A model generated the notes under the pieces. The model did no database searches. It saw only the letters and a program-made list of their open reading frames with translations, and was not told the origin of the DNA. Shown piece after piece: positions 7,345 through 24,636 of a DNA stretch of 32,671 nucleotides. The stretch is taken from assembly GCA_009784555.1 (NCBI GenBank), contig WRBO01000014.1, positions 1 through 32,671 on the forward strand. Reading direction: 5' to 3'. Numbering within the stretch: position 1 is the first letter of the stretch; each line of letters opens with the position of its first letter. The DNA comes from Bacillota bacterium (GTDB taxonomy: Bacteria > Bacillota > Clostridia > Christensenellales > UBA1242). A program made the position numbers and the translations under genes.

Positions 7345-7998
7345 ATGGATGGGATTCTTGTCATCAACAAACCAAAGGGGCCAAGTTCCTTTTATTACAT
7401 GAAAAAAATCCAGCGTAAACTGGACATAAAAAAGGTCGGACATTTGGGAACTCTGGACCCTAATGCATCTGGTGTTTTGGTTTTGATGTGCGGACGGGCG
7501 ACCAAGTTGAACGAAAGATTAAGCGGCGGGGCAAAGGTCTATCAATCTCTATTCACATATGGAATTGAAACGGATACTCTTGACCCCGAGGGCAATGTAA
7601 TTACCAAGTCCGAAATCATCCCAACACCTCAACAAATCAAAGCGGTACTGCCATCTTTGGTCGGTGATGTTGAAATCGAAATCCCCAAATTTTCCGCCGT
7701 TCATATCAACGGGGAGCGGGCATACGACTTGGCCCGTCGCGGGGTAGAGTTCCAGGCACCAAAAAAGGTGGTAAAGGTCGAACGGTTTGAATTACTCCCT
7801 AACGGTTGGGTTGAAATTGAATGTCAAACTGGCACATATGTACGGTCGTTGGCTAAACTGGTCGCACAAAAACTGGGAACGGTTGCAATTGCATCGGAAA
7901 TTACCCGCACTCGTGTAGGGAATTTCAAACTTGAAAACGCCAAAACACTCGAAGACGTAACGCTCAATGACTTAATCCCGATTGAAAATTTCCATTAA
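7345..7998 (+). CDS. truB: tRNA pseudouridine-55 synthase, short form
   Basis: TruB converts U55 of the tRNA T-loop to pseudouridine. The 217-residue product begins MDGILVINKPKGPSS and contains the catalytic motif HLGTLDPNASGVL with the nucleophile Asp38. It also has VYQSLFTYGIETDTLDPEG and the C-terminal core motif ECQTGTYVRSLAKLVAQKLG. Typical TruB has about 290-310 residues. Here the C-terminal PUA-like region is missing and the protein ends with IPIENFH soon after the catalytic core. The start at 7345 gives the canonical N terminus; an in-frame alternative at 7294 lies in nrnA. The last 27 bases overlap the convergent endonuclease IV-like gene. Confidence 0.93.
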   Translation: MDGILVINKPKGPSSFYYMKKIQRKLDIKKVGHLGTLDPNASGVLVLMCGRATKLNERLSGGAKVYQSLFTYGIETDTLDPEGNVITKSEIIPTPQQIKAVLPSLVGDVEIEIPKFSAVHINGERAYDLARRGVEFQAPKKVVKVERFELLPNGWVEIECQTGTYVRSLAKLVAQKLGTVAIASEITRTRVGNFKLENAKTLEDVTLNDLIPIENFH

Positions 7999-8820
7999 TC
8001 GAACCGCATCTTGGGCCATGATGGAATCACTCTCACATATGATTACGGGCGTCATGCCTTTTTTCTTTATATAATCACGAAAAGGTTCAAAAGGAAAATT
8101 CCAATCTGCGGCATCCAAGGTATGATGCTTGCGCTCGCCCTTTTCGTTGTATTCAACCGCCGCCCAATGAACATGCAGGATTTTCAACTTCTCCTCACCT
8201 ATCTCGTTTCCAATGTAATCCAACACTTCGGCAAATTTATCTGGGTTTCTGGATAACTCACCCTGCATTAAACAATTCATATGACCAAAATCCACGGTTG
8301 GGATTATCCGTGGGTCGATTTTGCAAAACTCACAAATTTCTTTGTAATCCCCAATTTCACGGTACTTGCCCATTGTCTCGGCACACAATAAAAACTCTGA
8401 AAGCCCCTCTGCATCCAATTGCTCAACAACACGTTTCAGGTTCTTTGCGGTATTTGAAAGGGCAACATCTCGGTCTAATTGACCTTGCGATGCCAAATGC
8501 ACAACCAATCGCCGCCCGCCCATAGCACGAAGAAGAACCAAGCTATCCCGTATCCATTTATAATTCTTGTCATACGCTTCGTCATTCGCCAAATTGATGA
8601 AATATGGGGCATGGGCGCTGGGCTCTATCCCATATTTTCGACATTCTTCGCCGATTGCCGCGGCGGTTTCCATCGACATTCTGGCACCATGACCAAAGCT
8701 GTATTCATATGCCGTCAGGCCAAATTGCGACAACCATTTCGGCGCATCCAAACTCCTCTTTAACCCCTCGTCATAAAATGCCTTGTCATTGCCTGACGGC
8801 CCAAATCGTATCTTTTCCAT
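7972..8820 (-). CDS. nfo: Endonuclease IV-like TIM-barrel AP endonuclease
   Basis: Zinc-dependent enzyme that incises DNA at abasic sites in base-excision repair. The 282-residue product has the xylose-isomerase-like TIM barrel. Metal-ligand segments appear in order: SAHAPYFINLA (His), LVVHLAS (His), LLCAETMG (Glu), TVDFGHMNC (Asp, His), ILHVHWAAVEY (His) and VIICESD (Glu). The segment aligned to the usual D-R-H ligand pair reads EKGERKHH. This resembles the archaeal-type branch (E-K-G-E-K-x-H) more than E. coli Nfo, so biochemical activity may differ. The N terminus MEKIRFGPSGN is natural for this branch. No Shine-Dalgarno is visible and a TATAAT ends six bases before the ATG. It converges with and overlaps truB. 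Confidence 0.85.
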   Translation of the reverse strand: MEKIRFGPSGNDKAFYDEGLKRSLDAPKWLSQFGLTAYEYSFGHGARMSMETAAAIGEECRKYGIEPSAHAPYFINLANDEAYDKNYKWIRDSLVLLRAMGGRRLVVHLASQGQLDRDVALSNTAKNLKRVVEQLDAEGLSEFLLCAETMGKYREIGDYKEICEFCKIDPRIIPTVDFGHMNCLMQGELSRNPDKFAEVLDYIGNEIGEEKLKILHVHWAAVEYNEKGERKHHTLDAADWNFPFEPFRDYIKKKGMTPVIICESDSIMAQDAVRLMEIFNRD

Positions 8821-8936: not shown

Positions 8937-9022
8937 AGGACTATAGGATAAAAAGGGCGTATTGGGTCTAAACCCGTTTACGTCTTTTCGCGGACGAAAG
9001 AAGTACAAAAGAGGAGACAGGG

Positions 9023-12000
9023 ATGGCGACAGCAAAACAAGTCAGAAGGCGCACGATGGTGGGATTACTCCTGGTCGCAATTATTGCGGTGGGTTTGGTC
9101 GGCTATATCGCCCTGGGACGGACATATACCGTCAGCTTCAATACACGCGGTGCGGAATATGTCCGCTCAATAAGTGTGTCTCCGCGACACCATCAAAACC
9201 TTGATGACGTGATTCCAATTAACCCTGGATACGTCTTCATGGGATGGATGCCCACAGAGACGAGTTACGGAACATACGTCAGCAACACGTCAGAACTAGG
9301 CAGCACCACCACACTCTTCGCCCATTGGGTGCCCGAAAATTTCCTGGCGCGGCTCTACGTCGACGGGATAAATTACCGCAACATCAATCTAATAGCAGGC
9401 CAGCATCTCGGCCACCTACCTAACGAAGATTGGTTTATCGAGGTCGACAGTCGTATGGCCTTTTCCCAATTTCTGGGGTGGGAGTTTTTTGATATCTTGG
9501 GCAACCGCAGTGAACTGCGCTGGACGGACGAATTCGAGGGGCCTCGCATGTGGGTATTGCACAGTAACTTGACATGGGACCAAATGACCCAACAATATGT
9601 GCCTGAACGTTCGCACGCAATCACCCCCGCTGAACCATTCCGTCCTGAACTGTACGACATGACATTCAATGCAATCGTCCAATGGCGTGATGTTGCATTG
9701 GTGTTCGAGGGTGGCGCAACCCAACCAATTACCGCATTACAATTCAACGACGAAATTGCTATGCCACGTTTCGTAAACACGATGCAACCAAACTTTGCGG
9801 GATGGCGCATGACACGCGTGAACAACGACCTGCACACCATGGGTACCGACAACTTGACTGGCTCGATTACATCTATCGTAAAACCGGGGCACACTTCGGG
9901 CTATGCTGGCACCGTGCGCGACTTGCGTAATCTTAACGAGATGTTTACACGCATCTATTCCGAGTTCGAGGTTCTAAACATCGACTCATTGCTTTACTAT
10001 GTTTCCCGACCATTGGCGGGTTTCCCAACAACACGTGCAATTCACTTCGAGCCTGTGTTCTGGAATGCTGACCGCGTTGTGGATTCCGACGACCCTCTTT
10101 ACAATCGCTCCATCACTCACTCGGCTCAATTCCTTATCCGTGGTTTGGATGGTGGTTTGACCGAAATCCCAACAACTACGGATGGTGACGCCCACCCAAG
10201 CACAACCAGCATCCCTGCACGCCTTGAACCTGGTGCCCGCGTCGTCCTGTACCGTCCGGCAACTGTTGCGGGACGTACATTCCGCTACTTCCAATATTTC
10301 GACGGCCAAGGCAACCTAATTCGCCTTGACGACACGGCGATGAGCTGGGGTATCTACCTACCGGGTCACACCGATTCCATTCTGCACCCAACACACGCAA
10401 CAATTTTCGAGGCTGTGTGGGACATCGCCGACCAAATCACAATAACGTTCGACTACGGTCGCACGGAATTTGGTACGGGCCTACGATTCATTAACTACAT
10501 TGAAACTGAACAAGGCTCCACAATAGGAACCCCGGTCGAGAACGAAACTGACGTGGTGACCAGCGTCACTCAATACATCGGCCAAGAAATAATTCTGCCT
10601 TCCGTTGCGATGTTCGCAATGGCAAACAGGAGCTTCTCTCACTGGGAAGACCCTAATGGTAACTTTGTTGGGGTTGCTGGACAAATCCACGTGGTGGCGG
10701 GCGACCTCATCGACCCTGAAACTGGTGGGTACACATTGGTCGCACGTTGGGTGGACAACCGTGCGAATTTTGCATTTGATTTGAACGGCGGCCGTGATTT
10801 CGCGCCGGACGTTTCCATCATGCGCGGAACTCCTGGACAATCAGTCAACATGCCCGAGGGTCAACCTATCCGCTACGGCTACAACTTTACTGGCTGGATG
10901 TTGGGCGACACTGTGGTCGGTCAAACGGTCACAATTCAAAACCGCCGCCAGGTTATCGTTGCTCAATGGGCACCGCGACCTGTAACAATCAATCTGAACT
11001 ACACATTTGTGGAAAACGGCATGGTGCGCGAGCGTCCGATTTCCATCAATGTCCCATTCGACAGCACAATTCAACTACGCCGTATTACAACTCCTGAATT
11101 TACCCAAAGCGCCCAACTGGTTGGATGGCGTTTCACCGACCGTTTGAACACACGTAATATGGACTTTGCACCAACGCAATCTCTGCGTATTGACGAGGCA
11201 TTCGCCGTGCGTGCAACTGGCTCGTTCGACGACACCGACTTGTTCACACGCGATAACGGAGTTATCAACGGCCGCGAGATTAAAGAAGGCCGTGACTTCG
11301 ACGTCACATTCTTCGGCGACATGGGTGAACACGTTGTGGGCGACAACTTCCACAATGGCACGGGCAACGTTCAACTGCGTTTCATGACACAACAATGGCG
11401 TGGGGGAATCCCTGGTCCTGATGGTGAACCTGGCTCTGGCCGTTCAAACACCGTATCACGTCAACAAATCTACACAATGATTAACAACACCGCGGGCGAA
11501 ACATTTGAACACTATCGTCGCCTGCAAATTACTCACGAACTTACCGGAGTTCTATTCATTCCTGACGCACTTGCGGGCTCAATGCTCTCAAATGCTGCTG
11601 GATGGACTTCTGTCTTTAACCCAAATACGGGTGACTTTACTGGCGGCTCATTGGGTCTGCCAAGCATCCACCACGACTTCACCCGCGACGGTGACGGCAA
11701 CACCGTTAACCTGCGTCTGTACCTGTGGAACGAAAACATGCGAATTTACCCCGTGTGGACTCCGCGAGAGGTCGAGGTCGAGGTCGTTCTGCCGCCTGTT
11801 CCAAATGGCGTAGACGAGGTCACTCCAACCATCCCATCAACATTCACGGGCGACCGCCGCGAACACGCATCCCTGATGTACGAACCTCTCTTCCGCGTGG
11901 CAACCGACCCAATCGAGAGCATCAACCCTGACACAGGTGCAACCGAAACACGTTTCCGCTTCAGCACCTGGAGCGCGCGCTTTGAATTCCGTCACCCAAC

Positions 12001-15000
12001 ACGTATGGTTGGTGGCGAGCGCGAATTACTGCACTACTTTGAACGCTCATGGACTCCTGACCGCTCTGGAACATTGTCCGCCACCGAACGAAACTGGTTC
12101 TTTAGTGTGTACAACGCCGCACCATGGGAATATGTCGGCGATGACGGTACATTGGTCGGGTTGGCTTTCCCTGTAACACGAATTGTTCTGACACGTGTCG
12201 TCCAAGACCTCACAACTTTCGTCATGCGCGTGGAAGACAGTGCCAACATGCACCCAACGCGTAACTACTTTGGTGTGGCAACAATGCCGTTCCAAGGGAA
12301 CGAGTCACTTCCAAACTACAGCCCATTTGGTTACACCGACGGTATTGGTTCGTTGTTCCCAAACATCCGTAACGAGGACAACATGGTCGACTTCCGCATC
12401 GGTGGGGTATTGCCGCGTCCTGACCTTGGCCCTAACGAGTACGAGGAATTCACTCCTGGCATGCGTGGCCTTCAAATTGATAACGACTTGCGTGCCGCCG
12501 CACAAACACGCGGACAACGTGTAAGCCACTTCCGTACTGCTGACGGTCAAATCTTCTTCCCAACAAACGAAAACACCCCTGTGATGGAAGTTCGCCTTCA
12601 CGGTGGTAACCCTGCTGGCGGCATCGTTGGCCCGGGTGCTGGTTTCCCAAACCTGCCTATCGTTGGTCACGCGGTCGAGGATGAACATGGCGTAATCCGC
12701 GACCACAGCGGCAATGAAATTGACCCTGACAACGTTCCTGCGGGCTTGCTTGCATTCATTAACGCTGACGTACTGGGCTCGGTTACATTGCAACCTGTCT
12801 TTACTGCGCTGTACTACCACGTCTTCATCTACTTTGAAACCGACGGCTCAAACATGCCGACCGATGTGCGCGAACGTCTGATGGACAACCCACACACCGA
12901 ATCCGTGCCAAACACCAACTACTTCCGCGTACGCGTTCCTGGCCGCTTTGGTGATGCTGGTACACCTGCTTCCGCTCCTGGTCTGAACAACATTGTCTTG
13001 AACACACCTGGCTTCACGGGTGCCCCTGGTTCCATTACTGGGCCTGGAACATTGTGGCGTGACATGCTGCAATCCCACTTCGGACACTTTGCACAACTAA
13101 ACATGCCAAACGTCGGCCCACGTGTTGACGGTACGGTCGTTCCAATGTTCGCATTGAACAGCAACCATTCGTTCAACATCGGCTCTGGAACTGGTCCTGG
13201 CCCTGGCTACACCCAACTCGACTTCAACTGGGCAACTGGTGCAAACTTCAACGAAATTCACCTCCACCTTGACTGGCGCCCACAACAAATCCAGGCACGC
13301 TTCCACTGGCAGAGCAGTAACGCTATCCAAATCTCACCTGCGACAAACATCGGATACTTTGGCTCAAACGTTAACCTCTGGGGTGACGACGACTTCCCAA
13401 CCAGTCCTCGTCGCCTTGGCTACACCCTCGAGGGATGGACAACCAACTCCACATTTGATGCACGCTTCGGATTTGTCGGCGCGTTAGGCGGAACGGTACA
13501 TGCTGGTGACCAACCTGGCGGAACTCCGCAAATCGGCAACTTCTACATGAACCCGCCTGCATTCGCCGAAGTCAACAGCACTTTCCTCAACGTCGACCTG
13601 TACGCCGCGTATCTGGGTCTACCAATGCCTGTCCAATTCATTCTGGTGGATGTGGATAACGCCGCCGCACGTCCGACATATGTACACAACGACGCATTCA
13701 GCACCGAAAACCGCTTCGGCCTTGCCGACCCGACCGAGGGGCCTGACTCCGCACGTAACGTGTTTACACCACAAAACATTTCGGGGATGGGAACTGGTCT
13801 TTGGGCTCTGAACCTGCCTGATGCACGTTTCGGCGACCAAATCAACCTTGACGAACGTCCAACCGCGTTCCACCACGGTGTCTCCGCCAACATCTTCTTC
13901 CAATACTGGTACTACAACACGTTCGAGGCCGAGGGCTCCGGATTTGTCCAGGTTCCTCGCCGTATCGTCCCAACATCTGCGGGATTGATATTCAACTTGA
14001 ATGACTTAAGTTTGATTGACCCAATCACAAACACATGGCGCAACAACCCATCGGTCTTCCAAATCCACTCACGCTTTACCCAAGGCGACACCCCATTCTT
14101 CGCCTTCGACACCAGCAACGCAATCACAGGCCGCGCCCGTAACAACGGCACGGTAGGGGGGACCAGTGTCTGGAACGAAGAACAACTAGGAAACAGTGTC
14201 AGCCAAATGCAAAACGGGGAAGACGGATTGCTGCGTGACATTCTCAACCTGCACGTTGCACCGGGCGATTACTTTGTTCCTATGATTGACCGTGCCGACC
14301 CAACGGGGTACACGGGCGACTACATCTTCCACGTCAACGACCGCGGAACAACACCAACACAACCGGGCGGGGCCGACGACTGGGCATTGCCATTCCACGT
14401 TAACGCTGAACGTACCGAACGTGTTGCAAACATCGACGTCACCGACGGGTTCAACATTCGCACAATCAACAACCCAATGAACCTGTACCAAACCCTGATT
14501 TACAACAGCAACCCTGCCTCTGGCCCTGTTGTGGATAACCGTTTCATCCGTTTCGGTTACGAACTAATAGGTTTCAGCGCAGTCACAAACGCTGGTCATG
14601 TGACCGACGAACACATCCGTGAAAGATACTTCTTCAGTCCAGCATTCATCACCAGTGTCGAGGGTGCGCAATTCTCGGCCGCTATGAACATTCCAACATT
14701 GACGGTGTCAAACAACACTTTGTTCCGTCACGCATTCATTCGCGCGGACGGTACGGGAATGGCTCCATCGGTTGTCCTACGTCCTATCTGGCGCGCGATG
14801 AACGTTGAATTGATGATGTTCATGGGCGACACAACGTTGGAACACACCGAACTGACAAACTGGCCACGTGATGTACTGGGAATGCCAACCTCTGCGGGCC
14901 AGCCTAACTGGACTGGGTTCCCATCCCAAGGTCGTCTTGTAACCACCTTCGAGGACGTAATCAATCTGCCACTACTTGACGTAGCGGCCGAGGACAGCGG

Positions 15001-18000
15001 TTACTTCCACACTGGATTCCGTTGGGCCGAAACACAATGGTATCTGAACAACACCCCTGGGTTCCCAATTGAATGGAACAACTTCCGTGATTACTTTGTT
15101 CGTCCGCTTGACACCGAACTTGCCCGCCGTGACTACAACCACGGCCTGCGCGAGAGCTGGCCAAAAATCTGGTTCGAGGCTCAATGGCAAGAAACCTTCA
15201 GTGTCACCGTCAACTTCCACATGGCACACCGTGACTTGGATACGGGCGACATGATTTTCACAAACCCTAACGAACTGCCGTCCGAGGCCCTCGAAACACG
15301 TATCGTCTCTATGGCACCAACACGAATTAACGTCGGTACGACCGCCAACCCTGTGTGGGAATGGAAAACACAATTAGTAGGCAGCTCGCTCTTCCTCATC
15401 ACCGAATTCCGCTTACCAAACTTGGATGACCTTGACCTCGATAACGGTCCCGACCTATACGGTCTGACATCACGCGGTTGGTACAGCCACCGCGGCCTGA
15501 CCGACGGCTTCCGCCTGGGGGCCGAGGGCGACATGCTACGTTTCCGTAACGGTGACCGTCAAACGGCATGGAACAACAACACTCCTGTGACATTCATTCC
15601 TGGCGGAATGGGCGGGGTAGTTCCATTTGAAACTGACCTATACCTCTTATATGACTACGCGCGCGGACACATTGAATTCCGCTCCGAGGGCGGCCCTGGC
15701 ACCCTCGTACCTCCACCAAGACAAAACGTACTCCAAGGCGAAGAAATCTTCTTCAATACCCAGGCCGAAACATCAATCATCCGCTACGGCCGCTCATTCC
15801 TTGGATGGCGCTTTGCTGGACACTTGACACCTACAACCGCGGGCACATCGGTCGTTGTTCCGTACCAACCATACTTGGATTGGGTCGCGGCAAACACATC
15901 ATCACACCACTCGCTGGAATTCCCATTCCCAATCTATACCGCGGTTAACCCATTCACCGTCCAATTTACCGCACTGCCGGTAATGGTTGTGAACGAAACC
16001 ACGGGCGAACTGGAACAACTCACCGACGGAAACGGTGACCCTGTATACCGCTTCCAAGACGGTGCAATCATCATCATGCAAGCCGTATGGCACGAGGTTC
16101 TGGTTCCAATCGTTTTCCACAACGATGCATCAATCCCTGGGGTAATCCAAGGCGACTTTGACGGCGTATCCGTTCTTTACGGAACACGTTTCCTTGACGC
16201 TGATGTTGACGGAAATGCTGACTTCCTGCCGTTCCTTCAAAACAACCACCCAATTCGTGCGGGCCACAGGTTCGAGGGTTGGTACTTCACACCAACCGCG
16301 TTCATGCCGAACCCAGTTGTTCAAAACCACCACGACGTTCAGTTATTTAGTGCCATTGACCCATCACGTAACGTGGTCGACGGGCCGAACTACCACCACA
16401 TGGTAGACAGCCAAGTTGCGGTAAATCTGCACGCCCGTTTCGTTCCAAACCACTTCAGGTTTAACTTCAACGCAAACCACAACGATGCAACGTTCCCGGC
16501 TGGAAACTCACGCCCAACTGCTACGGAAACTCTACCTGCATTCCCTGGTACTGGGTTTGAACGCGCCTACACATTCGGTTCACGTATCGACAACCTGCTG
16601 GATATCCAAATCGTTAACCCAATGGCACGTTTCGTTGGTTGGTCTCTGACTACTGACGATGTATCAAACGTCATGAACCCTGCATTGGGCGTGTCCGCCG
16701 TTCGCTTGGGCTCATCAAACGCCGCAACCTCGGACGAGTTCATCTTGGACGTTGACACGGCAATGCGCGCTGGAACGCCAATCGGAACAAACCCTGACGG
16801 CTCCTTGGTATTTGAAATCACCCTTCACGCAATCTGGTCCCAAGAAGAGGTCATGATTTCCTACATCGCGGGTGCTGGCGCAACCGGGGCAACAGTAGCC
16901 CAGGCCGCCTACCTCTTCGTCGACGGTATTCGTCACATTGTTGGCGGTGACAACGCAATGACCATCGGTGCTAACGCAATCGACCACCGCACATACGGTG
17001 TCATGGTCGTTGACGCAACTGGATTTGACCGTCCTGGTTACAACTTCTTGGGATGGCTCCCAACCCAGGCCGCTCGCGTCGTCCCTGGTACAAACCCATT
17101 GGGCAGATTCTTGGGGCACGGGACACTCGACCGAATTTTCTTCCCTGGCGAATTCCTGCCTTCAATCCGCGAGAGTATGACAATGGTCGCCGTATGGGTT
17201 CCACACGGGCCATTGACTGCAACACCTACATTGATTGCATCTAACGTATCTCTGGACGGCCTGGCCGAAAATTCAAAGAGCATCCACTCCATCGCCGCAA
17301 TCACCACACCAATCACAACCGCCGCACAAATCGTCTTGGTACCGCGCGGTGCGGAATTGGCTCGCAGTACAATCGTCGCAACAAACGCTGTCCACGTTGG
17401 ATTGCCTGCGCCATTAACGCGTGGGGGGGAAAGTGCCCGCCTTGCTCCTGGCGCAATCATCACCGCCGCATTGGAATGGGTATTCATCAACGATGGTCTG
17501 GTCGGATTTGACGGCCCAGTTGTTGGAAACATCATTACTGGCTCGGTAAACCCACACACAGGCGCGGTAATAAGTGCATTCCGCGAATACATCGTCGCCC
17601 AAGGTAACTTGGTACTAACATTCATGGACGGCAGCACAACTAACGTCGACACGGACGTGCCATATGTCTTCACACACCGCACGACAAAATACCGCTTCGA
17701 CGCTTACGGACAAACATGGGGCATCTTGTATACTGCGGGCTCAACTCGAACTCTGCTCGGGTTCCCATCCGCACGTGCTTCGGATGCTGTCGGAACAATC
17801 GGCCCTGTTGAAATGGCTGGCGTGACTGCATTGGCACCGTACGCATTCGCTTACTTGAACTCTGGCATTACAACAATCAATGTGACTGGCGTACAAACAA
17901 TTCCGTCACGCGCGTTCTACAACATCAACAACGTTGCGACTCTGCGCCTGCCTAACAACCCTGACTTGGTAATCGCACACGACTTTGTCGCTGGTTTCAA

Positions 18001-21000
18001 CCCTGCATTGGCCAGTGTACGCTTCGGCACAACAAACGAAGAAGTTCTCGAACTCAACGGCGACCGCACAATCGAAACATTTGAATTCATGGGCGTCCCA
18101 AGCATGTTGGTCGAAACAATCGACGGCGACATCAGTCGCATCATCTACACATTGACCAGTGCCGATTTCATGACAACAGAGGTCAACATGGACTTCACAA
18201 CGGGCGAGGTTCAAATCAATGAATACGCTCTGTGGAACTTCGTGCCAATTCAAATGACCGAATTGCGTATCGGCGGCTTCACACCACTCCTGGGAACCCA
18301 GGAAGGTCTGCGCCGCGCGCACTTCTTCGGAACGGCATACGCGTACTTGATGGCCTCATTGCCACACACACTCCAAGAAATCTTCGTGGGCGAAAACATC
18401 CGCGAACTTGACTGGACACTGGTCGCATCGCTGACATTGCCGCGCGGTATGACAATTGAATACGACCCAACGGCATCACGTATTCGCTTGGCTGGACACG
18501 CTGGCATCCTGTCGGTCGTCGGCGGGGCAAACGGTTTCCCTGTCTTCCTGTCTACCTTGGCATTGGCAAACACATACCAAAACGCCACGGCATCTAACCT
18601 CGCACGTATCGAAGGGAACAGCCGTTTCCAAACACGCGCAAAGACTCTCACATTCAACAGCGGCGACTCAAACGACGAATTCGCTCTTGGTGCATTGGAA
18701 TTCGAGCACATGACCGCATGGGGAATGCCATTCACGTTCCCTGCACCGCGTGCTGACTTTGTTCGCCCTGGCTATGCATTCATCGGATGGAAATTGGTAA
18801 TGAACGCCGACCAAATCGCGGCTGGCACACCGCCATACATCATCTTCCCGCGCGGCGACACACGCACATTGGCCATGACATTCACAAACACAACAATGTA
18901 CGTCCAAAGCACGGCAACATTCATCGCTCAATGGCGTGTTGTCTACGCCGAATTCATCGGCCTAGAACGTGTCAGCCAAGCCTTTGAAATGTTCGACGAA
19001 ATAGAGGTCAACGCAAACATCGGTATCGCAAACGCCGCTGGCGACGACGTGACACGCATGTCATCGGGCCACAGCGCAGACATGAGCATCCACGGAACAC
19101 GTTTCTTCATGGCACACACTGACCAGGGTTTCATCGGGCCGTCTGGACACCACTATGGAATCGTCGGCTGGACAACGGTTGCCCGTTCCGCAACATTCGA
19201 CATTGACGAATGGATGTGGGACAACGCGGCTGACGCCACACGCATCATGCCAATCCACCCACAACACATGACACCTGCACAACGCCTTGCATGGTTGCAC
19301 ATCTTGGACGAGGACAACTTCGTAACCTTCTACGCGCTGTATGGTCGCCGCTCGCCTAACATCGAATTCGTGGCAAGTACAATGACCCACGACATCGGCA
19401 CAATGGTAATTAACGGTGTCGCCGCACAAAGGAACACAACGATAGAGTTCGAGCAAAACGGCCACATGACAATCCCTGCCTGGGGCCCATACATCCCTGC
19501 GGGTCAAAACGCGGGCTTCCTGCGCCCTGTGGTAGAGGTTGCTGCACGTGGCTTCATGATGACCGCTGGCATGTTGACGGGGGACATCTACATCGGTGAA
19601 CACGTCCGCGCCATCCGCGAGAGCGCGTTCGAGGAAACCCACGCAAGCAGCCTGACCTTCGCAATCAACGAAACTCGCTTCGATGCACACCGTCAAAACC
19701 CTGCAACACCAAGCTTCGTTATCGAACAAAACGCATTTGCGCGTAACGTGGTAATGGGCGGGGAAATCATCATCCCATCACACACAGAGGTCATCAGTCA
19801 ACGTGCCTTCATCGAAAACCACGCCGTAACGGCGATAGGGATGAGTTCGGGCACTCCACGCCTAACAACAATCGGTGCCTCTGCGTTCGAGGGCAGCTAT
19901 CTTATCCAAGAATTCTTTGTCCTGCCGCGCACCCTGCACACAATTGGACTGTTCGCGTTCACGCTGACAAACATCTCCGCGTTTGAAACCGAAAACGACA
20001 TCGACGACATGGCCGCCGCGGCATACCACTTCCGTTCTGGAATTGGGGCATACGACGGTATGGCAATGTTCGCCGTTGACGGCCACTTGGTAATCCACGA
20101 GGAAAGCAACGACCGCTTCTCCCTGATGCTCTACGCTCCGGGCGCACAAGACGCTGTCTTCAACGTCGGTACACTATGGAACACATTGCCTGAACTGACA
20201 CACATAGGCAACTACGCATTCAGCCGCCACGAATGGGTACGCTCAATCGTCCTGCCTGACGCAATCACATTGGGCCACGGTGTCTTCGCCTACGCATTCT
20301 CGCTTCTGCACGTCTACGTTGAACACGAAAACCCAATTGGCTCTGGCGGATTGCTGACAAATGTAACGTCCAGTATGAACGCATTCTACGGCCTGCCAAG
20401 TGTCTCAATCCGTCTGGTAACAATCGAGGACCCATTGGTCGCAATGCCGCGCATCTTCCTGCCGCTCGACATCTCCAACGTCCACAACTGGCGTATCTTC
20501 CTGGCCGAACAAATGATGCTCGACCCAACATATGTCCAAGTCGTCAATGCGGGCGTCGGCCGTCACCCTGACCACGTCGCCCTTGATATGGCCGCCGCTC
20601 AAATCGTTATCAACATGATAACGGCTCTGGGGCCTGCCGCTGACCTGACAATCGGCGATGCCGCGGCCGTCGCCGCCGCGCGCGATGCCTTCGACGATCT
20701 CACCACCTTCCAACAAGACCACGTTACAAACATCGCATTCCTCCTTGCCGCTGAAATGCGCATCATGGAACTGGTGCTAGAGGGTATCCAAGCCGATGTC
20801 GACGCCGTCGTTGCTATGGTCGCCGCATTGTACGACCGCGTATTGACCCTGGCTGACGAGGCCGATGTCATCGCCGCCCGTGCCGCGTTCGATGCACTAC
20901 CGGAAGAAGCAGGCCTACTGGTAAACCTCGCGGGCCTTGACCTTGTCATCACAATCGCCGAGGGTCAAATCCAAGCTCTCCATGACCAGGCCGCCGCCGA

Positions 21001-21961
21001 CCTCGTCATCGCAATGATTGATGCAATCGCGGACTATGCCGACATCATGGACGCTGACCTTGCGGGCATCCGCGCCGCGTTCAACGCTCTAACACCTGCA
21101 CAACGCGCTCTGGTCACAAACCTCGCTGACCTTGTCGCGGCCGAAGAAAACGTCAAGGAACTCTATGACCAGGCCGCCGCTGACATCGTCATCGCCCTCA
21201 TCGATGGTATTGCTGACTACGCAAACATCACCGATGCTGACTTGGTTGCCATCCGTGCCGCATTTGATGCGCTGACGGACGCACAACGCGCCCTGGTTGC
21301 GAACATAGATGACCTATACGCGGCCGAGGAACTGTACTACGACACAACCCGCGCAAATGCCGTACTGAACCTGATTATGGCTCTGGACCGCAACGACTTG
21401 ACCATCGCCGACCTTGACGACATTCTGGCCGCTCGCGCCGCGTTCGATGCACTGACCACTGAACAACTTGAACTCATTGACGCAACCATGCTTCTGGGCA
21501 TCCTTGCAACCGCCGAACAATACGTCCAAGACTTGTACGACACGGCCGCCGCTGACATCGTCATCGCTATGATTGATGACATTCTGGATGCTGACGATGA
21601 CGACTTCTTGGACGCCGTTGTCGCCGTCCGCGCCGCCTTTGACGCACTAACCGACGACCAACAGGCCCTGGTTACAAACATCGACCTGCTCATCGCAATA
21701 GAAGAAACTATCGAGGAACTCAACCACGCCCTCGCCGTCGCACTTATGATTGCCGACCTTGAACGCGTTCTGACGGCCGACGATGTGGACGAAGTTCTTG
21801 CCGCCCGTGCCGCATTCGATGCACTGAACCAACTGCAAATCGACTTCCTCATCGACCTTGACCTGTTCGATTTATTAGAGGCAACTTTGATTGACGCCGA
21901 AGAACAAATTGCCGACTACATCGATGACAACGGGGACGACGATGACGGGGACGACGACTAA
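9023..21961 (+). CDS. Giant exported InlB B-repeat / leucine-rich-repeat surface protein, 4312 residues
   Basis: Probable cell-surface adhesin or scaffold; no specific ligand is recognisable. Order of parts: basic start MATAKQVRRR and a hydrophobic segment (about 13-31) for export or anchoring. Next is a long array of InlB B-type (Listeria-Bacteroides) repeats, residues about 33-2728. These show the GY-x-F-x-GW motif (GYVFMGWM about 69, GYNFTGWM about 619, GYNFLGWL about 2672) and closing x-A-x-W strands (IVAQWAPR, MVAVWVPH). BspA-like leucine-rich repeats follow at about 2927-3156 and 3443-3800, separated by another B-repeat (GYAFIGWK). Seven helical repeats at about 3846-4300 carry the motif AARAAFDALT. 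The tail is almost only Asp. I see no LPxTG, SLH, dockerin or choline-binding module. Lysine is almost absent (about ten) and cysteine is absent. GAGGAG at 9011-9016 supports the ATG. Confidence 0.92.
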   Translation: MATAKQVRRRTMVGLLLVAIIAVGLVGYIALGRTYTVSFNTRGAEYVRSISVSPRHHQNLDDVIPINPGYVFMGWMPTETSYGTYVSNTSELGSTTTLFAHWVPENFLARLYVDGINYRNINLIAGQHLGHLPNEDWFIEVDSRMAFSQFLGWEFFDILGNRSELRWTDEFEGPRMWVLHSNLTWDQMTQQYVPERSHAITPAEPFRPELYDMTFNAIVQWRDVALVFEGGATQPITALQFNDEIAMPRFVNTMQPNFAGWRMTRVNNDLHTMGTDNLTGSITSIVKPGHTSGYAGTVRDLRNLNEMFTRIYSEFEVLNIDSLLYYVSRPLAGFPTTRAIHFEPVFWNADRVVDSDDPLYNRSITHSAQFLIRGLDGGLTEIPTTTDGDAHPSTTSIPARLEPGARVVLYRPATVAGRTFRYFQYFDGQGNLIRLDDTAMSWGIYLPGHTDSILHPTHATIFEAVWDIADQITITFDYGRTEFGTGLRFINYIETEQGSTIGTPVENETDVVTSVTQYIGQEIILPSVAMFAMANRSFSHWEDPNGNFVGVAGQIHVVAGDLIDPETGGYTLVARWVDNRANFAFDLNGGRDFAPDVSIMRGTPGQSVNMPEGQPIRYGYNFTGWMLGDTVVGQTVTIQNRRQVIVAQWAPRPVTINLNYTFVENGMVRERPISINVPFDSTIQLRRITTPEFTQSAQLVGWRFTDRLNTRNMDFAPTQSLRIDEAFAVRATGSFDDTDLFTRDNGVINGREIKEGRDFDVTFFGDMGEHVVGDNFHNGTGNVQLRFMTQQWRGGIPGPDGEPGSGRSNTVSRQQIYTMINNTAGETFEHYRRLQITHELTGVLFIPDALAGSMLSNAAGWTSVFNPNTGDFTGGSLGLPSIHHDFTRDGDGNTVNLRLYLWNENMRIYPVWTPREVEVEVVLPPVPNGVDEVTPTIPSTFTGDRREHASLMYEPLFRVATDPIESINPDTGATETRFRFSTWSARFEFRHPTRMVGGERELLHYFERSWTPDRSGTLSATERNWFFSVYNAAPWEYVGDDGTLVGLAFPVTRIVLTRVVQDLTTFVMRVEDSANMHPTRNYFGVATMPFQGNESLPNYSPFGYTDGIGSLFPNIRNEDNMVDFRIGGVLPRPDLGPNEYEEFTPGMRGLQIDNDLRAAAQTRGQRVSHFRTADGQIFFPTNENTPVMEVRLHGGNPAGGIVGPGAGFPNLPIVGHAVEDEHGVIRDHSGNEIDPDNVPAGLLAFINADVLGSVTLQPVFTALYYHVFIYFETDGSNMPTDVRERLMDNPHTESVPNTNYFRVRVPGRFGDAGTPASAPGLNNIVLNTPGFTGAPGSITGPGTLWRDMLQSHFGHFAQLNMPNVGPRVDGTVVPMFALNSNHSFNIGSGTGPGPGYTQLDFNWATGANFNEIHLHLDWRPQQIQARFHWQSSNAIQISPATNIGYFGSNVNLWGDDDFPTSPRRLGYTLEGWTTNSTFDARFGFVGALGGTVHAGDQPGGTPQIGNFYMNPPAFAEVNSTFLNVDLYAAYLGLPMPVQFILVDVDNAAARPTYVHNDAFSTENRFGLADPTEGPDSARNVFTPQNISGMGTGLWALNLPDARFGDQINLDERPTAFHHGVSANIFFQYWYYNTFEAEGSGFVQVPRRIVPTSAGLIFNLNDLSLIDPITNTWRNNPSVFQIHSRFTQGDTPFFAFDTSNAITGRARNNGTVGGTSVWNEEQLGNSVSQMQNGEDGLLRDILNLHVAPGDYFVPMIDRADPTGYTGDYIFHVNDRGTTPTQPGGADDWALPFHVNAERTERVANIDVTDGFNIRTINNPMNLYQTLIYNSNPASGPVVDNRFIRFGYELIGFSAVTNAGHVTDEHIRERYFFSPAFITSVEGAQFSAAMNIPTLTVSNNTLFRHAFIRADGTGMAPSVVLRPIWRAMNVELMMFMGDTTLEHTELTNWPRDVLGMPTSAGQPNWTGFPSQGRLVTTFEDVINLPLLDVAAEDSGYFHTGFRWAETQWYLNNTPGFPIEWNNFRDYFVRPLDTELARRDYNHGLRESWPKIWFEAQWQETFSVTVNFHMAHRDLDTGDMIFTNPNELPSEALETRIVSMAPTRINVGTTANPVWEWKTQLVGSSLFLITEFRLPNLDDLDLDNGPDLYGLTSRGWYSHRGLTDGFRLGAEGDMLRFRNGDRQTAWNNNTPVTFIPGGMGGVVPFETDLYLLYDYARGHIEFRSEGGPGTLVPPPRQNVLQGEEIFFNTQAETSIIRYGRSFLGWRFAGHLTPTTAGTSVVVPYQPYLDWVAANTSSHHSLEFPFPIYTAVNPFTVQFTALPVMVVNETTGELEQLTDGNGDPVYRFQDGAIIIMQAVWHEVLVPIVFHNDASIPGVIQGDFDGVSVLYGTRFLDADVDGNADFLPFLQNNHPIRAGHRFEGWYFTPTAFMPNPVVQNHHDVQLFSAIDPSRNVVDGPNYHHMVDSQVAVNLHARFVPNHFRFNFNANHNDATFPAGNSRPTATETLPAFPGTGFERAYTFGSRIDNLLDIQIVNPMARFVGWSLTTDDVSNVMNPALGVSAVRLGSSNAATSDEFILDVDTAMRAGTPIGTNPDGSLVFEITLHAIWSQEEVMISYIAGAGATGATVAQAAYLFVDGIRHIVGGDNAMTIGANAIDHRTYGVMVVDATGFDRPGYNFLGWLPTQAARVVPGTNPLGRFLGHGTLDRIFFPGEFLPSIRESMTMVAVWVPHGPLTATPTLIASNVSLDGLAENSKSIHSIAAITTPITTAAQIVLVPRGAELARSTIVATNAVHVGLPAPLTRGGESARLAPGAIITAALEWVFINDGLVGFDGPVVGNIITGSVNPHTGAVISAFREYIVAQGNLVLTFMDGSTTNVDTDVPYVFTHRTTKYRFDAYGQTWGILYTAGSTRTLLGFPSARASDAVGTIGPVEMAGVTALAPYAFAYLNSGITTINVTGVQTIPSRAFYNINNVATLRLPNNPDLVIAHDFVAGFNPALASVRFGTTNEEVLELNGDRTIETFEFMGVPSMLVETIDGDISRIIYTLTSADFMTTEVNMDFTTGEVQINEYALWNFVPIQMTELRIGGFTPLLGTQEGLRRAHFFGTAYAYLMASLPHTLQEIFVGENIRELDWTLVASLTLPRGMTIEYDPTASRIRLAGHAGILSVVGGANGFPVFLSTLALANTYQNATASNLARIEGNSRFQTRAKTLTFNSGDSNDEFALGALEFEHMTAWGMPFTFPAPRADFVRPGYAFIGWKLVMNADQIAAGTPPYIIFPRGDTRTLAMTFTNTTMYVQSTATFIAQWRVVYAEFIGLERVSQAFEMFDEIEVNANIGIANAAGDDVTRMSSGHSADMSIHGTRFFMAHTDQGFIGPSGHHYGIVGWTTVARSATFDIDEWMWDNAADATRIMPIHPQHMTPAQRLAWLHILDEDNFVTFYALYGRRSPNIEFVASTMTHDIGTMVINGVAAQRNTTIEFEQNGHMTIPAWGPYIPAGQNAGFLRPVVEVAARGFMMTAGMLTGDIYIGEHVRAIRESAFEETHASSLTFAINETRFDAHRQNPATPSFVIEQNAFARNVVMGGEIIIPSHTEVISQRAFIENHAVTAIGMSSGTPRLTTIGASAFEGSYLIQEFFVLPRTLHTIGLFAFTLTNISAFETENDIDDMAAAAYHFRSGIGAYDGMAMFAVDGHLVIHEESNDRFSLMLYAPGAQDAVFNVGTLWNTLPELTHIGNYAFSRHEWVRSIVLPDAITLGHGVFAYAFSLLHVYVEHENPIGSGGLLTNVTSSMNAFYGLPSVSIRLVTIEDPLVAMPRIFLPLDISNVHNWRIFLAEQMMLDPTYVQVVNAGVGRHPDHVALDMAAAQIVINMITALGPAADLTIGDAAAVAAARDAFDDLTTFQQDHVTNIAFLLAAEMRIMELVLEGIQADVDAVVAMVAALYDRVLTLADEADVIAARAAFDALPEEAGLLVNLAGLDLVITIAEGQIQALHDQAAADLVIAMIDAIADYADIMDADLAGIRAAFNALTPAQRALVTNLADLVAAEENVKELYDQAAADIVIALIDGIADYANITDADLVAIRAAFDALTDAQRALVANIDDLYAAEELYYDTTRANAVLNLIMALDRNDLTIADLDDILAARAAFDALTTEQLELIDATMLLGILATAEQYVQDLYDTAAADIVIAMIDDILDADDDDFLDAVVAVRAAFDALTDDQQALVTNIDLLIAIEETIEELNHALAVALMIADLERVLTADDVDEVLAARAAFDALNQLQIDFLIDLDLFDLLEATLIDAEEQIADYIDDNGDDDDGDDD
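9119..17206 (+). repeat. InlB B-repeat (Flg_new-like) array, protein-level repeat
   Basis: These roughly 2700 residues contain many diverged beta-grasp units of about 70-200 residues. Each unit ends in a strand with a buried Trp: FAHWVP, AIVQWR, FEAVWD, VARWVDN, IVAQWAPR, YPVWTPR, LRPIWRAM, FEAQWQET, IMQAVWHEV, LHAIWSQEE and MVAVWVPH, among about fourteen I could mark. Many units have longer loops than the classic Listeria repeat. The repeats are diverged at the DNA level, so recent duplication is not evident here. Confidence 0.8.
17801..18490 (+). repeat. BspA-like leucine-rich repeat block 1
   Basis: Within the giant protein, residues about 2927-3156 contain LRR_5-type units: VTALAPYAFAYLNSGITTIN, VQTIPSRAFYNINNVATLRL and VIAHDFVAGFNPALASVRF. 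The I/L-x-x-x-A-F pattern is typical of BspA-type repeats found in surface proteins of gut and oral bacteria. Confidence 0.72.
19350..20420 (+). repeat. BspA-like leucine-rich repeat block 2
   Basis: Residues about 3443-3800 of the giant protein. Recognisable units include VRAIRESAFEETHASSLTF, TEVISQRAFIENHAVTAIGM, LTTIGASAFEGSYLIQEFFV, LHTIGLFAFTLTNISAFE and LTHIGNYAFSRHEWVRSIVL. Spacing is about 22-25 residues, with inserts. Confidence 0.78.
20560..21920 (+). repeat. Seven alpha-helical repeats of 60-66 residues (AFDALT repeats)
   Basis: The signature R-x-A-F-D/N-x-L occurs at about 20681, 20880, 21070, 21253, 21435, 21629 and 21806, that is 60-66 residues apart. It is flanked by A-A-A-D-x-V-I-A-x-I and by L-V-T-N-x-x-x-L-x-x-A-E. 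Copies 3, 4 and 6 begin with nearly the same DNA: 21172-21195 and 21544-21567 are identical over 24 bases, and 20989-21012 differs at two. Similar A-Y-D-A-L-T repeats occur in stalks of other Bacillota surface proteins. Their likely role is as a spacer. Confidence 0.8.
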
Positions 21962-22494
21962 TGCAAATCATCTCTGGCAAATACCGCGGTAAAAAATTGA
22001 TGAATATCTTTAACGACACAACGCGCCCGACAACCGGGCGCGTTCGTGAAAATGTATTCAACATAATTGCTGAACGAATACGCGATGCTACTGTGCTCGA
22101 CCCCTTTGCTGGAACTGGGGCAAACGCGGCCGAATGCATTTCCCGTGGCGCGAAAACCGTAATCGTCAACGACAGCAACCCTGTGGCGGTTGATGCGATA
22201 AACAAAAACATGAAATCCATCGGCGGCCCTGCGGCAACTCAAATGGATGCAATTGATTTAATTCACAAACTACGCGACATGAAATTCGATATCGTCTTCC
22301 TCGACCCGCCGTATGACGGCAATATGGGCCCGCGCATCATTGAACTTCTAACAAAATTCGACATGGTTCGCAACGGCGGGGTAATCGTCTTTGAAACGGA
22401 CTCCGCACACGAACCTATCACCTTCGACCACTACAACGTTCGCGAAAAAACATACGGACGCGCAAAAATCTACTTCCTACACAAACCCAATTAA
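21961..22494 (+). CDS. rsmD: 16S rRNA m2G966 methyltransferase RsmD
   Basis: SAM-dependent methyltransferase that modifies G966 of 16S rRNA in the assembled small subunit. The 177-residue product has the diagnostic N terminus MQIISGKYRGKKL and TRPTTGRVRENVFNII. It has the SAM-binding loop VLDPFAGTGANAAECISRGA (about 44-63) and the catalytic DPPY motif in FLDPPYDG. Length is normal (180-190). The ATG at 21961 overlaps the stop of the giant gene (TAATG). A GGGG at 21947-21950 is the only weak ribosome-binding site, so translation is probably coupled to the upstream gene. It overlaps the convergent ylbJ-like gene by 18 bases, with no terminator between them. Confidence 0.94.
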   Translation: MQIISGKYRGKKLMNIFNDTTRPTTGRVRENVFNIIAERIRDATVLDPFAGTGANAAECISRGAKTVIVNDSNPVAVDAINKNMKSIGGPAATQMDAIDLIHKLRDMKFDIVFLDPPYDGNMGPRIIELLTKFDMVRNGGVIVFETDSAHEPITFDHYNVREKTYGRAKIYFLHKPN

Positions 22495-24267: not shown

Positions 24268-24636
24268 ATGAATCAACTGGAAGAGGTATTCAAAAAAAGA
24301 ATCCGCGTCGCTGACACGGGTGACGGGCGTTTCGCCATCAGCTTTCCTATGTACAAAATCGAGGGCGGTCTTTACGAAATCTACCTGGTTCCAAACGGCA
24401 TGGGCGGCTACAGCTTAAGTGACGAGGGCGCCACGCTCGAGGAACTGGACAAAATCTTTGAACTGGGCGAACCTGACGTTATCAAAAACTTGGTCGCTAT
24501 CCTGCGCCAATACGGATGTAAAAAGGTCGGTAACGCATTCCAAATCGACTGCACGCCGCGCGACGTCCACATCAAAATGTCATTTCTTATCCAGGCCATT
24601 TCATTCATGCTTAACATGAAAATATTCTACGTATAG
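24268..24636 (+). CDS. DUF1828-domain small protein
   Basis: A 122-residue cytoplasmic protein without signal or membrane segment. The central pattern IEGGLYEIYLVPNGMGGYSL, then SDEGATLEELDKIF, matches the DUF1828 signature, in which a short beta sheet leads into D-x-G-x-T-x-x-x-L. The C-terminal part has IDCTPRDVHIKMSFLIQAIS. No catalytic residues are evident. Function of the family is unknown; relatives occur in prophages and near toxin-antitoxin genes, but nothing mobile is visible here. AGGGGAGG at 24254-24261 is a good ribosome-binding site and the gene has its own promoter. It stands alone between the phosphorylase and folC. Confidence 0.7.
   Translation: MNQLEEVFKKRIRVADTGDGRFAISFPMYKIEGGLYEIYLVPNGMGGYSLSDEGATLEELDKIFELGEPDVIKNLVAILRQYGCKKVGNAFQIDCTPRDVHIKMSFLIQAISFMLNMKIFYV

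Follow-up and report, generated by a model that had tools for sequence, protein, structure and literature searches.

A giant B-repeat and leucine-rich-repeat surface protein of a Clostridia genome with almost no lysine and a probable N-terminal membrane anchor

B-repeats (PF09479, List_Bact_rpt) and BspA-like leucine-rich repeats (LRRs; PF13306, LRR_5) are known as building blocks of bacterial surface proteins. The composition of such exported proteins can vary with the organism: in secreted proteins neutrophiles favour lysine over arginine and Bacillus halodurans shows the reverse (PMC9110029, section 8 and Figure 5c), and the consulted part of PMC3059134 describes alkaline proteases and cellulases as having lost Asp and Lys and gained Arg, His and Gln. 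Whether the Lys/Arg ratio of secreted proteins reflects Sec transport or the chemistry outside the cell is a live question. Here we describe a protein that carries both repeat families in an exported context and differs from the described members by its sparse and divergent B-repeats, its probable N-terminal anchor, its length of 4312 residues and its almost complete lack of lysine. Judged by its domains it is ordinary, a very large new member of known surface-protein families.

The gene lies in a contig of 32,671 nucleotides, the whole of which was analysed and is called the window below. The initial annotation, which spoke of a 12.9-kb surface-protein gene, was right in this respect: the open reading frame is intact, runs from an ATG at 9023 to a stop ending at 21961 without internal stop, and follows a probable ribosome-binding site. 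Its stop codon overlaps the next ATG by one base (TAATG).

7972..8820, minus strand: upstream neighbour, deoxyribonuclease IV-like (match below the family cut-off)
9011..9016, plus strand: GAGGAG, probable ribosome-binding site, read directly
9023..21961, plus strand: giant surface-protein gene (4312 aa, 10 Lys, 243 Arg, 0 Cys)
21961..22494, plus strand: RsmD gene, conserved neighbour (NCBIfam TIGR00095, 129.7 bits, cut-off 117.5)

A small open reading frame further downstream (24268-24636) matches DUF1828 (E 4e-6), and similar frames lie downstream in two of the homologous loci described below (L033 and L035).

Among the Pfam and NCBIfam profiles, only B-repeats (E 1.5e-17, 63.8 bits, cut-off 27) and BspA-like LRRs (E 4.5e-15, 56.1 bits for the whole protein, cut-off 27.7) were found. 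The Pfam B-repeat profile matched three stretches, and an independent HMM, trained on other proteins, matched eight places between residues 36 and 3258, mostly partially; this HMM returned 0 domains in 20 shuffles and in the reversed protein.

9128..9322, plus strand: B-repeat, residues 36-100, the sole full-length copy found (Pfam and independent HMM)
10775..10930, plus strand: B-repeat, residues 585-636 (profile and independent HMM)
13337..13471, plus strand: partial B-repeat, residues 1439-1483 (profile and independent HMM)
15671..15829, plus strand: weak B-repeat, residues 2217-2269 (independent HMM, i-E 0.027)
16241..16297, plus strand: partial B-repeat, residues 2407-2425 (independent HMM)
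16565..16672, plus strand: weak B-repeat, residues 2515-2550 (independent HMM, i-E 0.011)
16988..17068, plus strand: partial B-repeat, residues 2656-2682 (independent HMM)
17837..17959, plus strand: first LRR_5 block, weak, residues 2939-2979 (E 0.0053 alone, below cut-off)
18734..18796, plus strand: partial B-repeat between the LRR blocks, residues 3238-3258 (independent HMM)
19721..20020, plus strand: second LRR_5 block, best stretch residues 3567-3666 (Pfam profile)

The "about 2700 residues of B-repeats" of the initial annotation are therefore an overstatement, since the repeats are sparse cores in mostly unassigned sequence. As to its two LRR blocks split by a further B-repeat, the one that follows the last B-repeat is unambiguous, and the first is weak and below the cut-off when taken alone. 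A BLAST of the protein against itself gave only the trivial full-length match and no repeats, and a sequence search of the PDB with the whole protein gave no match.

Residues 1-1000 were used to search 60 genomes. Long matches (E 3e-125 to 1e-86) were obtained in three of the four other genomes of the genus, and the fourth (G004, 65% complete) had no match to this part of the protein. The three congeneric homologues measure 3738-3848 aa (3738, 3771 and, once its start is trimmed, 3832), are 33-36% identical to the window protein and end just past the last LRR; all four proteins share LRR blocks, thinly spread B-repeats and a membrane helix at the N terminus. RsmD lies near the giant gene in all four loci and at the corresponding site of a sister genus (G007) as well, and frames similar to the upstream deoxyribonuclease IV-like neighbour also occur at the homologous loci and in G007. 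G007 has an RsmD-like gene (111.6 bits, slightly below the cut-off), and the frame that separates it from the upstream-neighbour-like gene encodes a protein of 687 aa. This protein contains a helix and three B-repeats, has a normal lysine content of 7.7% and no acidic stalk or tail, and matches residues 65-218 and 422-748 of the window protein (best E 3e-12). A likely history is that a short protein grew about sixfold in the genus and subsequently gained a stalk in one species. In one congeneric locus (L035, G002) a 315-aa exported frame with 6.67% Cys (15250-16197) sits between the giant gene and RsmD; its neighbours are Cys-poor. Still larger open frames are present in relatives, 7750 aa in L053 (G082, contig 35) and 6591 aa in L039 (G030, contig 12), both with repeats like those of the window protein and, in the parts read, ordinary lysine.

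For retention at the cell surface, the initial annotation had left a choice between an N-terminal segment that stays in the membrane and an unrecognised device such as a metal-bound acidic tail. The hydrophobic N terminus on which the former depends was borne out, as 22 residues free of D, E, K, R, N, Q, H and P follow the sequence KQVRRR.

9023..9052, plus strand: residues 1-10, basic n-region, presumed cytoplasmic
9053..9118, plus strand: residues 11-32, uncharged stretch (helix 3-31 in the model), with a possible signal-peptidase site ALG/RT at its end

A basic N terminus with one membrane-length helix is found in the window protein, in the three congeneric homologues and in the 687-aa protein of the sister genus, and this helix is the only membrane device that they share. 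As first annotated, the C terminus of the window protein has no LPxTG motif with hydrophobic and basic tail, the end being acidic instead, and inspection and profile search gave no SLH, dockerin or choline-binding domain in the protein; a recognised anchor domain, the find proposed earlier as an argument against the annotation, did not turn up in the profile search. Sortase was found in none of the five genus genomes, which are 65-91% complete, with the control positive in 3 of 14, and SLH was absent from the window genome, the one genome tested and itself incomplete. The N-terminal segment is the better supported of the two alternatives, and an uncleaved signal anchor with the N terminus inside and the C terminus outside is probably the better reading.

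Alternatively, cleavage of the signal behind residue 32 might release the giant protein, unanchored, into the wall space or the gut fluid. Signal peptidase I occurs in all five genus genomes, no C-terminal anchor was found and, by a simple -3/-1 rule, ALG/RT at residue 32 of the window protein, with Gly at -6, is a possible site. However, this rule, applied as the site prediction that had been suggested, gave a possible site at the helix end in only one other family member (L034) and none in L033, L035 or the sister-genus protein. Moreover, the uncharged stretches of the family, with 21-29 residues, are longer than those of three of the four exported controls (16, 16 and 18; the fourth has 26). 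Structure prediction, likewise suggested earlier, gave poor models both of the stalk (mean pLDDT 42.3) and of the N-terminal 960 residues (mean pLDDT 37.7), the latter being usable, at moderate confidence, only about residues 11-100; there, helix 3-31 is followed with hardly a gap by the first B-repeat strand, at residue 35, which also argues against cleavage. We consider secretion of the cleaved protein unlikely, though it retains some weight, and prefer the uncleaved anchor.

The most unusual property of the protein is its composition, with 10 Lys against 243 Arg in 4312 residues. The four homologues keep 7-10 lysines each (0.19-0.23%), and a lysine content of 0.2% held across 35% identity points to a strong constraint. 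Two lysines are present in all four proteins in their alignment and are possibly functional, an isopeptide bond or a salt bridge being candidate roles.

11282..11284, plus strand: Lys754
17687..17689, plus strand: Lys2889

The window genome encodes a second giant (L009, 5265-12812), a lipoprotein-like B-repeat protein of 2515 aa with 5 Lys, two of them in the signal.

The composition of exported proteins was surveyed in sampled stretches rather than genome-wide, 28 from the five genus genomes and 28 from other genera of the family; L009-L011, L033-L035 and L055 among the former and eight of the latter (L039-L045 and L056) were chosen for their matches to the window protein, not at random. Open reading frames were the longest non-overlapping ones of at least 200 aa, taken without a gene caller, and exported candidates were assigned by a hydropathy rule. 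Multi-span and unclear frames were dropped, and three large proteins of the window genome (G000), including the window protein, fail the rule and stand outside the count. Per genus genome, K/(K+R) was 0.58-0.63 for cytosolic frames versus 0.15-0.23 for exported candidates. Values below 0.25 were found for 33 of the 47 exported candidates of the genus, some of which are clearly cytosolic or mis-started with normal lysine and were kept in the count, versus 1 of 167 cytosolic frames (Mann-Whitney p 2e-17); in the other genera of the family none of 35 exported and none of 143 cytosolic frames fell below this value, and the two classes did not differ (p 0.89). The exported-minus-cytosolic difference in K/(K+R) ranged from -0.35 to -0.48 in the five genus genomes and from -0.21 to +0.14 in 15 others with both classes. 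Order-level genomes (G062, G063, G074, G080, G082, G086 and G088), which are outside the per-protein test, gave exported values of 0.36-0.67. Lysine is scarce in the sampled exported proteins of this genus and not in those of its sister genera. The contrast tracks the membrane even within single proteins, one having 12 Lys in the 86 residues before its membrane helix and 4 in the 2270 after it, and another 8 Lys in 178 residues and 0 in 94. A mutational GC cause of the lysine loss was rejected, because the cytosolic genes of the same stretches are lysine-rich.

Other residues shift as well. The exported candidates of the genus have medians of 0.38 for Tyr/(Tyr+Phe), 0.11% for Cys and 2.91% for His, compared to 0.58, 0.54% and 0.83% in the other genera, and within the genus Tyr/(Tyr+Phe) is lower in exported than in cytosolic proteins (0.38 versus 0.43, p 0.007). 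NG dipeptides occur at 0.91 of expectation, compared to 1.30.

A SpoVD-like penicillin-binding protein, aligned over 30 genomes (those of 38 matching genomes for which the locus was returned), served as a control. Its ectodomain contains 11-16 Lys in all five genus members versus 24-45 in all 25 others, and 39-48 Arg versus 5-29; one of these 25 proteins has only 407 residues, the rest 528-593. At the 76 alignment cells with Lys in the two closest other genera, the window genome has 30 Arg and 20 Lys, and at the 45 cells with Arg it has 34 Arg and 2 Lys. Columns in which all 25 others carry lysine keep it in all five genus members. Tyr/(Tyr+Phe) is 0.42-0.48 in the genus versus 0.53-0.71 outside. 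Together with the fall in Lys, this ectodomain shows a rise in Arg, His and Gln in the genus, the groups overlapping for His and Gln. This pattern is shared with the alkaline enzymes of PMC3059134, described there, in the part consulted, as single enzymes, whereas here it extends to many exported proteins of one genus; in addition, those proteases and cellulases lose Asp, whereas the window protein keeps an unlowered 6.75%.

The three congeners with homologues are the MAGs Lab288P1bin95, bin73 and bin46 (G003, G001 and G002). In termite MAGs the sample code gives host and gut compartment, according to the available text of PMC7024585, so that Lab288P1 would denote the P1 hindgut of the soil-eating termite Labiotermes labralis. 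This compartment is called highly alkaline in the accessible portions of PMC7024585 and PMC10018900, and for soil feeders that of PMC8784593 gives values above pH 12 in the anterior hindgut. From its kinship with these three congeners, the window genome would also come from an alkaline termite hindgut. Mrp subunit B (PF04039) was found in none of the five genus genomes, which does not help an alkaliphilic reading; Mrp antiporters are typical of alkaliphilic bacilli, though not universal, and composition and habitat therefore have to carry the case for alkaliphily. As is the alkaliphile pattern, the exported proteins of the genus favour Arg over Lys. Among the possible causes of the near absence of lysine, a habitat of very high pH seems the most likely. 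It seems fairly probable to us that the genus inhabits a gut compartment with a pH near 12 and has remodelled its outer proteome, nearly excluding lysine, and less so Tyr and Cys, from the outside, the cytoplasm remaining ordinary.

The B. halodurans secretome (PMC9110029, section 8) likewise favours Arg over Lys in exported versus cytosolic proteins. In the present genus Lys drops to about 0.2% in proteins several thousand residues long, apparently an extreme form of this bias. Section 8 of that paper credits transport, and the same cause could apply here: under an inverted pH gradient, which provides no outside re-protonation ratchet, lysine would be lost on account of Sec function rather than of protein chemistry at high pH. 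However, arginine is reported there as the slowest residue in Sec assays, and Arg is not lowered here (5.86% exported versus 5.28% cytosolic). Moreover, an effect of transport on lysine alone would predict neither the decrease of Tyr relative to Phe and of Cys nor the increase of His in the same proteins, even if the low Cys is in part an ordinary trait of exported proteins (0.54% versus 1.45% in the other genera); the Tyr and His shifts point to the environment. We regard Sec function as an improbable cause. Because Tyr, Cys and His shift here too, this natural extreme is useful for telling transport and outside chemistry apart. Among titles and opening lines of abstracts, we found no further report of a proteome-wide effect.

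Lysine might also be avoided to escape a lysine-directed agent, such as a specific protease, host-cell ubiquitin or amine-reactive humic quinones. The retention of Arg while Lys is lost would fit, and the alkaline, humic gut contents may make quinone-amine chemistry plausible. Such an agent by itself predicts neither fewer Tyr nor more His, and the analysis gave no sign of residence in host cells, which makes it a decidedly unlikely cause compared to high pH.

The C-terminal end of the window protein is very acidic (75 Asp and 24 Glu in 462 residues) and comprises two elements.

20579..21886, plus strand: seven helical repeats, residues 3853-4288, with no counterpart in the three congeneric homologues
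21923..21958, plus strand: Asp-rich tail, the last 12 residues (9 Asp, 2 Gly, 1 Asn)

The seven repeats of the initial annotation were confirmed, as each scores 26.8-67.8 bits in leave-one-out tests versus 6.3-12.4 for the best of 1000 shuffles per repeat; its "Asp-only" tail was nearly correct, nine of the twelve residues being Asp. The repeats have no Pfam match and, by sequence, no solved relative in the PDB (three matches only, E 0.25-0.51). They resemble what we take to be a Firmicutes surface-protein pattern, V..I..L...T..D...V.AAR.AYDALT.EQ..LV.N, and differ from such repeats in lysine, the copy in G074 having 22 Lys in 293 aa and the window stalk 1 in 462. In a search of 99 genomes, the stalk matched in the window's own and in four order-level genomes and in none of the four congeners; the repeat HMM matched proteins in G074, G088, G086 and G082. 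The absence of stalk and tail from all three congeneric homologues marks them as a late gain that does not serve as the family's anchor. Retention by this acidic stalk, e.g. via wall-bound metal ions, is very improbable and was rejected as a general anchor, since stalk and tail are missing from the three homologues, which stop after the last LRR, from all four congeneric genomes and from the short sister-genus protein.

Taken as a whole, we lean towards a giant protein oriented N-in/C-out, which would be held in the membrane by its basic N-terminal residues and a single hydrophobic helix that stays uncleaved. The long, presumably beta-rich stretch with sparse B-repeats may span the wall and expose the LRR blocks on its far side, for binding to a putative ligand and for adhesion, and in the window species seven helical repeats and an acidic tip would have been added at the free end. 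The part after the helix would face very alkaline gut fluid, with lysine there nearly all replaced, largely by arginine, a loss that would be the same as in the other exported proteins of the genus. If so, proteins of several thousand residues keep fewer than 10 lysines outside, of which some are invariant and hence probably have a function, and lysine content would read out both membrane topology and external pH, a marker that needs sequence only and lends itself to a test with the termite MAGs of P1, P3 and P4.

The window genome also contains a diversity-generating retroelement (L010, contig C4; 2546-3673, 3779-3910 and 5135-5266), of which the reverse transcriptase matches RVT_1 (E 1.5e-20). 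Its template and variable repeats, of 132 bp, differ at 17 positions, all 17 at template adenines, and the variable repeat corresponds to residues 284-328, at the end of a DUF6273-like domain, of a membrane-anchored B-repeat protein of 2382 aa.
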